From the NCBI GenBank assembly GCA_027063755.1, contig JAMORD010000022.1, positions 1-12,380 of the forward strand: DNA of 12,380 bases. The letters are read 5' to 3'. Below are positions 1,354-5,859 of this stretch, in pieces; position 1 is the first letter of the stretch, and each line of letters opens with the position of its first letter. Made by a program: the position numbers and the translations under genes. Origin of the DNA: a bacterium (GTDB lineage: Bacteria > Coprothermobacterota > Coprothermobacteria > Coprothermobacterales > JAADFF01). The notes beneath the pieces were generated by a model that was given only the letters and a program-made list of their open reading frames with translations, had not been told where the DNA came from and did no database searches.

Positions 1354-1451
1354 TTAGCGCGACGGTGATTTGAGATATTGCCTGGGTAGCTGGACCGCAC
1401 TGGCGGGGGCTCCCAGGCGCTTAAAAAAGCGCCAAAGGGAGGTGTTTGTGC
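1354..1451 (+). promoter_or_regulatory. Structured flgE leader with mutually exclusive hairpins and a sequesterable Shine-Dalgarno
   Basis: The 98-base gap before flgE is a G+C island (32 of 41 bases at 1380-1420). Structure A pairs 1380-1386 (GCCTGGG) with 1412-1418 (CCCAGGC), then 1388-1390 with 1409-1411, and after an internal loop 1395-1398 with 1403-1406 around an ACTG tip. Structure B pairs 1416-1422 with 1427-1433 (GGCGCTT/AAGCGCC, loop AAAA). It continues across a small internal loop with CTCCC 1410-1414 against GGGAG 1437-1441, which is the flgE ribosome binding site (GGGAGG 1437-1442). Both structures need 1410-1418, so they cannot coexist. A would free the binding site and B would hide it. 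There is no T run, so control would be translational. I do not recognise a known riboswitch consensus; c-di-GMP-I and -II signatures are absent. The regulatory role is inferred; the pairings are seen. Confidence 0.6.
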
Positions 1452-3065
1452 ATGTTGAGATCTTTCTTCACCGCTATTTCTGGCCTGAAGGCCCATAATA
1501 CTCGTATTGATGTTATTTCTAACAATATTGCCAATGCCAATACTGTGGGATATAAATCTGCCAAGGCCACTTTTAGAGATGTTTTGTACCTTATGAATCG
1601 TGCAGCAAGGGCTCCATATGCTGGTAGAGGAGGAACCAATCCTTCTCAGATAGGTTTGGGTGTTCAGGTGTCTAATATCAACAACATAATGACACAAGGT
1701 GCTATACAAAACACAGGTAGAATAACGGATTTGGCTATACAGGGAGGAGGTTTCTTTGTTCTATCTGATGGGCAAAGATACTTCTATACACGCGACGGTA
1801 GCTTTGATATAGATACAAACGGTGCACTTGTCAGTGCTGCAACAGGTTTGAAGGTGCAAGGTTGGAGTATTTCACCAACGGCCAAAGTCAATGTTCACGG
1901 TTCTATTGATACATCTACAACAACTCAGACGCTCATTCGTGTCTATGATGAGTTTGGACAGGAGCATGTGCTTACTGTGAAATTTGACTCTACTACCAAT
2001 GGTGTTATTGCCACCATCTACGATGGTGTTAATGCATCGGCTCCCGTGCTTCTTAGCAATCATATCATTACCTTTGATGCTTCTACCAATAGGGTTATTG
2101 GTGGTCAGATAGCCAGCCTTAGATGGCATGGCCAGAATATCAGCATAGATTTTAATAATCTGCAGAGTGCTTCTGTGACCGCCGTCTTTGCCGATCCTGA
2201 TATTACCCCGGATGCAGGTAAAGTCGGTGATATTGTTATTCCTCAGGATATGAGCATGGCCCCCACTCCTACATCTTCTATTACCTTTAACGGAAACCTT
2301 GATGCAGCTGCAACGGCTTCTGACAACATCACATTCAGTGTCAGTGGCATTGTTGATTCTCTGGGTAGGGAGCATGCCATGGTTGTTACAATGACCCCCA
2401 AAGATGGAAGTGCTAATACATGGGTAGCCACTGTTAGTATTGGTTCTAAGGTATGGAAGTTTGGTGTAACATTTACCAATGATGGTAGATTTGAGAGTGT
2501 TTATTACAACACCTCTGATCCGGCTGGCGATCCATTTGATCCTGCAAACTCTGCAACAACATCTGAACCTACTATCGCCATTGATCCTAATGATCCACTG
2601 CTTTCCGAGTTTGCCGGTGCCAACCCTATGGATATTAATCTGACATTTAATTCACTGACGCAATATGCTTCTCAGTCTACTGTTTCTGGTTCTGCCGATG
2701 GTGTAAAAGAAGGGAAACTTGAGAGTTTCTTTATAACACCGGATGGGCAAGTTGTTGGTACATTTACAAATGGTCTTGTAAAGCCAATTGCTCGGATAGC
2801 CCTTGCTTCTTTCTCCAACCCTGCAGGTTTGCAGAGAGAAGGCTCCAACCTATGGTCTGATTCTGCTAATAGTGGCTTTGAGGGCTTTAAGACTGCAGAT
2901 GATCTGGGTTCCGAGGTTATATCAGGTGCCCTTGAAATGTCCAATGTTGACCTTGCTGAGGAGTTTACAGACCTTATTATTACACAGAGGGGATTCCAAG
3001 CTAATAGTAGAGTTATAACAACGGCTGATGAAATAACAATGGAGATATTGAATATTAAGCGATAA
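1452..3065 (+). CDS. flgE: Flagellar hook protein FlgE
   Basis: FlgE is the subunit of the hook, the flexible joint outside the cell that transmits torque from rod to filament. The N-terminus has the rod/hook signature FFTAISGLKAHN followed by IDVISNNIANANTVGYK. The C-terminus has the matching helix with MSNVDLAEEFTDLIITQRGF and an ANSRVITTADEI segment. The central 400 or so residues form the variable surface domains, with an Asp-Pro-rich patch near residues 356-380. At 537 residues it is larger than the roughly 400-residue Salmonella FlgE, but within the family range. I chose ATG 1452, nine bases after GGGAGG (1437-1442); a TTG at 1446 in the same frame is too close to that site. It is the only gene here with structured RNA on both sides: a switch-like leader before it and a terminator-like hairpin after it. 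Confidence 0.97.
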   Translation: MLRSFFTAISGLKAHNTRIDVISNNIANANTVGYKSAKATFRDVLYLMNRAARAPYAGRGGTNPSQIGLGVQVSNINNIMTQGAIQNTGRITDLAIQGGGFFVLSDGQRYFYTRDGSFDIDTNGALVSAATGLKVQGWSISPTAKVNVHGSIDTSTTTQTLIRVYDEFGQEHVLTVKFDSTTNGVIATIYDGVNASAPVLLSNHIITFDASTNRVIGGQIASLRWHGQNISIDFNNLQSASVTAVFADPDITPDAGKVGDIVIPQDMSMAPTPTSSITFNGNLDAAATASDNITFSVSGIVDSLGREHAMVVTMTPKDGSANTWVATVSIGSKVWKFGVTFTNDGRFESVYYNTSDPAGDPFDPANSATTSEPTIAIDPNDPLLSEFAGANPMDINLTFNSLTQYASQSTVSGSADGVKEGKLESFFITPDGQVVGTFTNGLVKPIARIALASFSNPAGLQREGSNLWSDSANSGFEGFKTADDLGSEVISGALEMSNVDLAEEFTDLIITQRGFQANSRVITTADEITMEILNIKR

Positions 3066-4139: not shown

Positions 4140-4970
4140 GTGGCCAAAAATAAATGTAAATGTGAAGAGGGTGGCGGTGCACCACTTTGGTGTTTAAGTT
4201 ATAGTGATCTTGTTACAAATACACTCGTTTTCTTTATTTTGTTATATTCTTTTTCTACAATCAATCCTGTTAAATTTGAACAAATAGCTTTTTCTTTCAT
4301 CATTACATTTGGAGGTAGTCTAGGTGTTTTACCCGCTAACCCAATTTTCACACCTCCTATGCCTGTGCCACCAGATGTTATTCAAGTTGGACCTATGACG
4401 GTTATGCAAACTTATGCCAATGCAGAGGGGGCTGCAAAAGAGATACAAAAGGCAGTAGAGGAGGCCCTAAAAGGTAAGTTATCAGAAATGGGAAAGGAAG
4501 AGCAAAAAATCTTATCGGAACTGGCTAAACAGCCTGTTGAAGTAAAAACAGCTAGTGGGGAGATAACCCTTATATTGCAAGGAGATATATTTTTTGACCT
4601 TGGAAAGGCAACTATTAAGCCTGAGATGAAAGAGGCCCTTAAGAAACTTGTTCCTGTTCTAATCAATGCTAATGGTGAGATATGTATTACGGGACATACT
4701 GATAACATACCTATTCATACAGCCCAGTTTCCGTCAAACTGGGAACTGGGTGCTGCTCGTGCTCTTGCTGTTTTGCACTTTTTTGAAAAAGAGGGAATTA
4801 ATCCGGCCAAAATGTGTGCTGCCACATATGGTGAATATAGACCTCGTTATCCGAATGATACACCAGAACATAGAGCTCTTAACAGGCGAGTAGAAATTAA
4901 TATCAAAATACCCGAAACACCATCACTTACCGGTACCTCTACTGTTTCGCCTAAGGGGGGACAGAGATGA
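4140..4970 (+). CDS. motB: Flagellar motor stator protein MotB (PomB-like)
   Basis: MotB anchors the stator to peptidoglycan and carries the ion-binding aspartate. The N-terminus has clustered cysteines (CKCEE, C6 and C8) and the segment APLWCLSYSDLVT, in which D23 is the expected ion-binding residue at the start of the single membrane helix (about 18-40). A Pro-rich stretch follows (about 75-84), likely the plug/linker region. The C-terminal OmpA-like domain is clear: GHTDNIPI, NWELGAARALAVL and ALNRRVEI. The Cys-rich N-terminus and the FSTINPVKFEQIA segment resemble PomB. Asn27 and Thr28 replace the usual Leu-Leu just after D23, which is unusual in a membrane helix. The GTG start directly abuts the motA stop. 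The 276-residue length is ordinary, and the end overlaps fliL by four bases. Confidence 0.95.
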   Translation: MAKNKCKCEEGGGAPLWCLSYSDLVTNTLVFFILLYSFSTINPVKFEQIAFSFIITFGGSLGVLPANPIFTPPMPVPPDVIQVGPMTVMQTYANAEGAAKEIQKAVEEALKGKLSEMGKEEQKILSELAKQPVEVKTASGEITLILQGDIFFDLGKATIKPEMKEALKKLVPVLINANGEICITGHTDNIPIHTAQFPSNWELGAARALAVLHFFEKEGINPAKMCAATYGEYRPRYPNDTPEHRALNRRVEINIKIPETPSLTGTSTVSPKGGQR

Positions 4971-5398
4971 AGAAATTACTACCAATCTTGATACCTGTTA
5001 TTGCGGCGATTCTTGGAATCGCCATAGGAGGTTTTGTCATTGGTCCTATGCTGATCCCTAAACCTCCTGATGTAGAGCCACAAGAGGGAGTATTATATTC
5101 TTTGGGTAAAATGCAGATAAACTTAGATGAGATGTCATATATAGTTATCATATCGCCTGTCCTTGAGTTTCGTGATCAGAAGACTCTTGACGAAATTATG
5201 AAAAAAGATCCTAACTTGTCTGAAATAAAAAGTATCATTATTAGAACATTGGCAAAGTATAGCCCCGAAGATTTTGTGGGAGATAAAAGAAGGGCTACGA
5301 TGGCTGCTGTAGTAGAATCTATCAATAATTTTTATGGTGATAAGGTTGTGCTACGGATATTTGTTACAGAGTTACTCATATCTAAACTCCCACAGTAA
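4967..5398 (+). CDS. fliL: Flagellar basal body-associated protein FliL (copy 1)
   Basis: FliL is a single-pass inner-membrane protein that surrounds the stator and supports torque under load. Residues about 5-27 form the membrane anchor. The periplasmic part starts with LYSLGKMQINL and shows the family pattern: LEFRDQKTLDEI, then KSIIIRTLAKYSPEDF, then INNFYG and a final beta strand VVLRIFVTELLISKLP. It starts at ATG 4967 within the motB stop (ATGA), behind AAGGGGGGA. It is followed after 14 bases by a paralogue (5413-5859) that is about 48% identical over the periplasmic domain by hand alignment, so a gene duplication is evident. Confidence 0.92.
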   Translation: MKKLLPILIPVIAAILGIAIGGFVIGPMLIPKPPDVEPQEGVLYSLGKMQINLDEMSYIVIISPVLEFRDQKTLDEIMKKDPNLSEIKSIIIRTLAKYSPEDFVGDKRRATMAAVVESINNFYGDKVVLRIFVTELLISKLPQ

Positions 5399-5412: not shown

Positions 5413-5859
5413 GTGAAGAAATTACTTGTACCAATACTTATAGCAATAGTGGCTGTTGCTATTGGCTTAGGTATAGGAGTTTTTTTTATTGGTCCTAAGA
5501 TGGCTCCAAAGGCAGATGATAAAAAGAAAGATACAACAAAAGATGAATCGGTGTTATACGATATGCCTAAGATGACCATTAATCTTTCAGATTACTCTTG
5601 GATAGTGCAGATCAAATTGACACTTCGTTTTAAAGATCAAAAGACACTTGATGAAATAACAACTAAGGATCCCGATATGGCTGTTATAAAAGATATAATC
5701 ATAAGTGTTATTAGTAGAAAAAACCCTGGCGATTTTACATCAGAGGGTATGGATCAAATTATGAACGAAATCAAAGAGGCTATAAATGACTTTTATGGAA
5801 AAACTGTGGTATTAGATGTCTTTTATACTGAAAAACTTGTAACAAAATTACCCATGTAG
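5413..5859 (+). CDS. fliL: Flagellar basal body-associated protein FliL (copy 2)
   Basis: This second FliL has the same plan as its upstream neighbour: a membrane anchor at about 4-27, a short lysine-rich charged linker (KADDKKKDTTKDE, absent from copy 1), and a periplasmic domain with MTINLSDYSWIVQIKLTLRF, KDQKTLDEI, IKDIIISVISRKNPGDF, INDFYG and FYTEKLVTKLP. It starts at GTG 5413 with AGGAGG at 5399-5404. The two copies have clearly diverged, so both are probably kept under selection. They may form a mixed ring around the stator, or one may serve another state of the motor; this is inference. A TAGGGGGA sequence at its end serves fliM. Confidence 0.9.
   Translation: MKKLLVPILIAIVAVAIGLGIGVFFIGPKMAPKADDKKKDTTKDESVLYDMPKMTINLSDYSWIVQIKLTLRFKDQKTLDEITTKDPDMAVIKDIIISVISRKNPGDFTSEGMDQIMNEIKEAINDFYGKTVVLDVFYTEKLVTKLPM

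Follow-up and report, generated by a model that had tools for sequence, protein, structure and literature searches.

Upstream of the hook protein gene flgE in a member of the small-genome phylum Coprothermobacterota lies a short, G+C-rich element with the potential to fold in two ways, which raises the question of whether it is a regulatory RNA and, if so, to what it responds. The window, by which we mean the whole stretch of 12,380 nucleotides that was analysed (contig JAMORD010000022.1; all features on the forward strand), carries flgD, a gene for a 129-amino-acid TIGR02530-like 'flagellar operon protein' (964-1353), the RNA element, flgE (1452-3065, recognized by Pfam and NCBIfam FlgE domains), flbD, motA/B and more flagellar genes. 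Translation of flgE is assigned to the ATG at 1452, and an in-frame TTG at 1446 is also possible. The initial annotation had proposed a translational RNA switch of no described riboswitch class, triggered by a ligand, a protein, translation of the upstream gene or temperature. Elsewhere in the window, a 179-amino-acid open reading frame without a Pfam match (41-580) occupies the usual place of fliK, 5′ of flgD, and two FliL-like genes adjoin each other (4967-5398 and 5413-5859).

Two exclusive folds before flgE

The element starts 26 nucleotides after the stop codon of the TIGR02530-like gene, as measured to the first helix, P1, and its G+C content over 1380-1420 is 78% (32 of 41 nucleotides), as originally stated. 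In structure A, the 5′ strand of P1 (1380-1386 and 1388-1391, with U1387 bulged) pairs with its 3′ strand, P1′ (1408-1418). The outer helix, 1380-1386 with 1412-1418, was found as claimed, and the inner helix, 1388-1391 with 1408-1411, extends one pair (U1391·G1408) beyond the original description. A 3x1 internal loop, in which GGA (1392-1394) faces G1407, separates P1 from the P2 hairpin (1395-1406), which consists of CCGC (1395-1398), the loop ACUG (1399-1402) and GCGG (1403-1406). Structure B, also present as claimed, comprises a second hairpin, P3 (1416-1433; GGCGCUU-AAAA-AAGCGCC, pairing 1416-1422 with 1427-1433), together with an anti-Shine-Dalgarno (anti-SD) helix. In the latter, CUCCC (1410-1414), which is part of P1′, pairs with GGGAG (1437-1441) of the flgE Shine-Dalgarno (SD) sequence GGGAGG (1437-1442).

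Folded in isolation, hairpin A has a predicted energy of -27.1 kcal/mol (z -3.55), and structure B one of -20.6 kcal/mol (z -5.78), with none of 200 shuffled sequences doing as well. The stability excess of the wider 122-nucleotide region over shuffled sequence is modest (z -2.25). Structure A can be said to free the ribosome binding site, as proposed, only by comparison with the anti-SD helix: when the full region is folded in state A, the SD is not always unpaired, since it can base-pair with nucleotides on its 3′ side.

Conservation in relatives shows that the element is not a chance structure. It lies between the TIGR02530 gene and flgE in all seven flagellated genomes of the phylum, among which FlgE identity falls to about 54%. 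Exact-pattern matches among relatives came from Coprothermobacter platensis, from other Coprothermobacter and Coprothermobacteraceae records, and from a relative of the same genus labelled as a Dictyoglomota MAG; most of the 37 exact-pattern matches, which lie in high-G+C coding DNA, were treated as chance. Across the seven genomes the core RGCY-GGA-CCGC-N3/4-GCGG-R-GGCU is nearly invariant, and the anti-SD helix is 100% paired wherever letters exist. In one genome (G003), two pairs of this helix are changed on both sides, from CUCCCAA/UUGGGAG to CUCCGAU/AUCGGAG. An origin as a repeat or mobile element was dropped, there being no second copy in the genome.

Both of the mutually exclusive structures, one of which engages the flgE SD, are thus kept in the seven Coprothermobacterota genomes. 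At 37-65 °C, the difference between their calculated ensemble energies ranges from -1.7 to +4.6 kcal/mol, a gap so small that a modest binding energy could decide between the states; state A is often calculated to be the more stable at 37 °C. As in riboswitches, a core stem and an SD-sequestering stem exclude each other and both are conserved, an arrangement that recurs in some other lineages. These data support the view that the Coprothermobacterota element works like a translational switch with two conserved, exclusive folds.

An RNA family with a conserved internal loop

A covariance model (R1) built from the seven Coprothermobacterota sequences found further copies upstream of flgE in unrelated genomes, and a second model (R2) was built on 12 diverse copies (alignment A3). 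In this alignment, 12 of 16 base pairs show changes on both sides, a number that none of 500 shuffles equals, and all three helices covary. R2 matches 60 of 386 sampled genomes at E values up to 0.1; in 51 of these TIGR02530 is present and the copy was judged real, and the other nine look like chance. The match in the window covers 1386-1433 (29.3 bits, E 0.003 within the whole genome). Among 68 aligned copies, 92.5% of cells are paired, compensatory changes on both sides occur at all 16 pairs (including the four of P2), and the covariation score is 0.576, where shuffles score 0.221 and slid structures no more than 0.198; since this alignment was fitted to the R2 model, the 12-copy counts are the cleaner test of covariation. 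Covariance modelling, which the initial annotation had named as its check, thus reveals compensatory changes in the anti-SD helix within the phylum and in hairpin A in other phyla, and the outcome that was to count against a switch, namely that neither stem would be conserved or covary, is not what we found.

Members of the family fold into a hairpin whose internal loop reads YGGN/R, and in most cases a second hairpin, with the loop GANYGANNGA, comes after it. In the 68 copies, the first G of the internal loop is conserved in 67 and the second in all, the third base is A, C or U (A in 52, C or U in 10), and the opposite nucleotide is a purine in 67 (A in 49, G in 18). A resemblance to the T-box UGGNACC was dropped: C takes the position before GG in 21 of 68 copies, and T-box features were not found. 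Some 60 copies show almost no variation at the GA..GA..GA positions of hairpin 2, and in family f2 a covarying stem carries the GANYGANNGA loop seen in most copies. In the genus of the window this hairpin is reduced to a plain one with an AAAA loop, so the inner hairpin of structure B (1416-1433) is a degenerate version of the family's second conserved hairpin. Hairpin 2 is dispensable, as G000, the Atribacteria and two further copies (L098 and L103) show, and without it about 27 nucleotides remain. Carriers outside Coprothermobacterota include Atribacteria, Thermoleophilia and Geminicoccaceae MAGs. The original view of the element as a candidate switch is therefore supported in part, with the addition of what it had not seen: a family spanning many lineages, its YGGN/R core, the kinship of hairpin 2 and the link to TIGR02530.

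That no described riboswitch class has this sequence was borne out: neither the window nor any of 15 loci matched an Rfam 15 family at the gathering threshold, c-di-GMP-I and -II included, and at E values up to 10 only unrelated chance matches appeared. Under the name Termite-flg RNA (RF01729), another candidate structured RNA has been linked to flagellar genes (PMC2864571). It resembles the present element in tying a structured RNA to such genes, but its model matches no copy tested, and its weak matches lie elsewhere in the genomes. The RNA family thus appears to be new and to occur in many bacterial phyla.

Beyond Coprothermobacterota, the potential for SD sequestration is lineage-limited. 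Taken over 42 copies, P1′ is more complementary to its own SD than to swapped ones (p = 1e-4), also when Coprothermobacterota are left out (p = 0.002), but many copies elsewhere have no P1′-SD complementarity. We therefore rejected a universal anti-SD switch, and the output or direction of control may differ between lineages.

Most copies lie 10-60 nucleotides before flgE. Six precede flgF/G-like rod genes (L118, L164, L166, L169, L170 and L053), and two genomes (G075 and G216) have a copy before a rod gene instead of a clear one before flgE. Another copy (L132) precedes a region near a sigma factor. Two copies have less familiar neighbours: one (L165:1501-1553) precedes a gene of unknown family encoding 298 amino acids, away from known hook and rod genes, and the other (L168:1501-1553) a 442-amino-acid open reading frame without a Pfam match that may be fliK. 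In two related genomes, flgE is preceded by two copies in tandem, about 115-120 nucleotides apart (L171 in G187 and L172 in G321). At L217 (in G286), and also at L201, the TIGR02530 frame has no stop codon at the usual place and continues across the hairpin, which makes the element overlap coding sequence.

Association with TIGR02530 and the predicted protein fold

TIGR02530 is present in all 42 genomes with a strong R2 match (E up to about 1e-4), compared with 74 of the 386 genomes overall, although the genomes in these counts are not independent. When 37 flgE-positive families from a 98-genome set were scored with the covariance model only, 11 had both the element and TIGR02530, none the element only, four TIGR02530 only and 22 neither (p = 1.6e-6). 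Among these flgE-positive families, neither CsrA (p = 0.23) nor FlbD (p = 0.15) was associated with the element, and FlbD was accordingly rejected as its partner. For TIGR02530 genomes missed by the covariance model, the gap after the gene was read by eye and then searched with a strict descriptor. Many missed copies were confirmed in this way, with at most one of 60 dinucleotide shuffles as good, and several remain by-eye variants. By model plus descriptor or eye, hairpin 1 is found in 71 of the 74 TIGR02530 genomes; of the remaining three, one is cut off by the end of a contig (G099), and in two the match to the family is itself weak (G145 and G229). A similar descriptor found no element in ten upstream regions from flgE-positive, TIGR02530-negative genomes.

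Most copies are directly downstream of a TIGR02530 gene, and shared inheritance explains part of the correlation for this reason. However, adjacency does not explain all of it, because five copies before flgF/G-like genes (all those named above except L053) lie away from the gene, and a Thermoleophilia MAG has TIGR02530 on one contig and the element, before a rod-type gene, on another. Since the element is almost always in genomes carrying TIGR02530, this protein, encoded directly upstream in most cases, is probably the partner that reads the RNA.

The open reading frame at 964-1353 scores 73.3 bits against the NCBIfam TIGR02530 profile (E 2e-20), below the cut-off of 83.2 bits. Its place between flgD and flgE, its SxHA..R core and its NIDxxV C-terminus are nevertheless those of the family, whose profile also finds a gene in this syntenic position in every flagellated relative. 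Members share SxHA..R...R, KG and T motifs and a NIDSAV C-terminus; in an alignment of 58, S51, H53, A54, R57 and D124 are invariant, and Arg61 and Lys83 nearly so. A structure model of the protein (pLDDT about 96 over residues 45-128) has three helices followed by four strands. Of the listed structural matches, many are to RelE, ParE, HigB and T4 RegB (Z 4-5.4), with RegB (2hx6) at Z 5.1 over 97 residues, and colicin E5 is also weakly similar. A type III pantothenate kinase matches equally well (Z 5.6), and Z scores under 8 can reflect a common arrangement. Foldseek searches of the PDB and of viral models gave no significant match (E above 0.1), and a sequence profile search of the PDB nothing meaningful. 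Pfam RegB matches TIGR02530 weakly (E 0.088), as DUF4258 does 20 of the 58 members; DUF4258 is a BECR-superfamily domain listed among RelE/ParE-superfamily families (PMC11980606). Together, the model and these matches are suggestive of a RelE/RegB-type (BECR) RNA-binding fold. In the open-access literature we found no paper naming TIGR02530, and no account of its function or of the RNA element; one paper lists DUF3766 (Gmet 3104, adjoining flgD) among flagellar operon proteins whose function is unknown.

A proposed protein-responsive switch and its alternatives

We propose, with a probability of roughly 0.6, that the element is a cis-regulatory RNA of hook and rod genes that responds to the TIGR02530 protein. 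Hairpin 1 (P1, the GGN/R internal loop and P2) would be the putative binding site, to which hairpin 2, with its GANYGANNGA loop, would also contribute where present. In Coprothermobacterota, the protein would hold hairpin 1, so that P1 stays paired and the flgE SD accessible; in its absence, the RNA would adopt the nearly isoenergetic alternative, in which CUCCC(NN) pairs with the SD and flgE is closed. Hook-protein synthesis would in this manner be adjusted to the assembly state of the flagellum, as FliW and CsrA do for flagellin. Computation establishes the RNA family, its base pairs, the two states in Coprothermobacterota and the link to TIGR02530; we infer the binding of the protein to the RNA, the direction of its effect (opening rather than closing the SD) and the assembly signal. 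State A might even need no protein, because it is often the more stable state at 37 °C and forms first during transcription.

Of the triggers initially suggested, a protein is favoured by the link to TIGR02530, and a ligand stays a rival. Temperature as a general trigger is disfavoured by the conserved core and the tight link to one protein family. If the element were a small-molecule riboswitch, hairpins 1 and 2 would form an aptamer for a motility-tied signal, with the anti-SD as platform and TIGR02530 as a mere co-travelling neighbour. Conserved loop nucleotides in two covarying hairpins, the switch architecture in Coprothermobacterota and the tandem copies in G187 and G321 are all riboswitch-like. 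However, the ligand would have to be confined to TIGR02530 genomes even where gene and RNA lie apart, an aptamer would have to manage with the roughly 27 nucleotides left when hairpin 2 is missing, and Rfam riboswitches give no matches, so that we consider this reading improbable. Of similarly low probability is that TIGR02530 is a RegB/RelE-type endoribonuclease that cuts in or near the element, with processing setting the stability of flgE (and rod gene) mRNA apart from that of flgD. The weak likeness to RegB and to RelE and colicin E5, the weak Pfam RegB match, the invariant His53 and Arg57, and the nearly invariant Arg61 and Lys83 would fit a nuclease, but fold similarity by itself shows no activity, and plain processing needs no P1′-SD pairing, which is conserved in several lineages.

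Translation of the upstream gene could act without any dedicated binding factor if the ribosome finishing TIGR02530 opened P1 and shifted the RNA to the SD-closed state. The stop codon lies 1-10 nucleotides before P1 in many copies, near enough for a ribosome to cover the P1 5′ strand. Yet the spacing varies, from 26 nucleotides in the window to 37-110 at six loci (L111, L126, L128, L179, L183 and L187), copies before rod genes have no such upstream gene, and coupling needs no conserved GGN/R loop; we regard it as very unlikely. Least credible of all is that CsrA, or FliW/CsrA, binds the GGA of hairpin 1 and the SD to repress flgE translation. The genome of the window encodes CsrA, and the loop contains GGA and the SD GGAG, but CsrA targets have an invariant GGA in a hairpin loop, whereas here GG[A/C/U] lies in an internal loop and the third base is A in just 52 of 68 copies. 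Moreover, two genomes that carry the element (G071 and G086) gave no match to CsrA, and CsrA presence does not predict it.

The protein-responsive switch has partial precedents. Ribosomal-protein leader RNAs and translational riboswitches, as a general class, share a strand between core stem and anti-SD and so adopt exclusive folds. The element resembles them in this and in its conserved core, but differs in that it is not in Rfam 15, its platform is conserved in only part of the family and its partner is putative. The endoribonuclease RegB of phage T4 acts on early phage mRNA with specificity for GGAG (reviewed in PMC3014915). The predicted TIGR02530 fold weakly resembles that of RegB, whose own target is GGAG in mRNA, and of other RelE-type BECR proteins, but TIGR02530 is chromosomal, lies inside flagellar operons and has a hypothetical nuclease activity. 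In Bacillus subtilis, FliW-CsrA controls the translation of flagellin (hag) (PMC6529632). The proposed system would likewise regulate a major flagellar subunit post-transcriptionally, at the SD and through a small RNA-binding protein, possibly linked to export; its RNA motif, protein family and hook/rod targets are different, and the export link is here conjectural.

We see about even odds that TIGR02530 is a domesticated RelE/RegB-fold RNA-binding regulator, which together with the element would constitute a widespread, previously undescribed system of hook and rod translational control. Having a candidate partner puts the idea within reach of a direct test that needs a single purified protein and a short RNA. 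If the proposal is true, it would assign a role to a conserved but functionally uncharacterized flagellar protein, add an apparently new family of structured RNAs that occurs in several phyla, and offer a clue to how hook and rod synthesis is matched to flagellar assembly in bacteria that lack the known systems.
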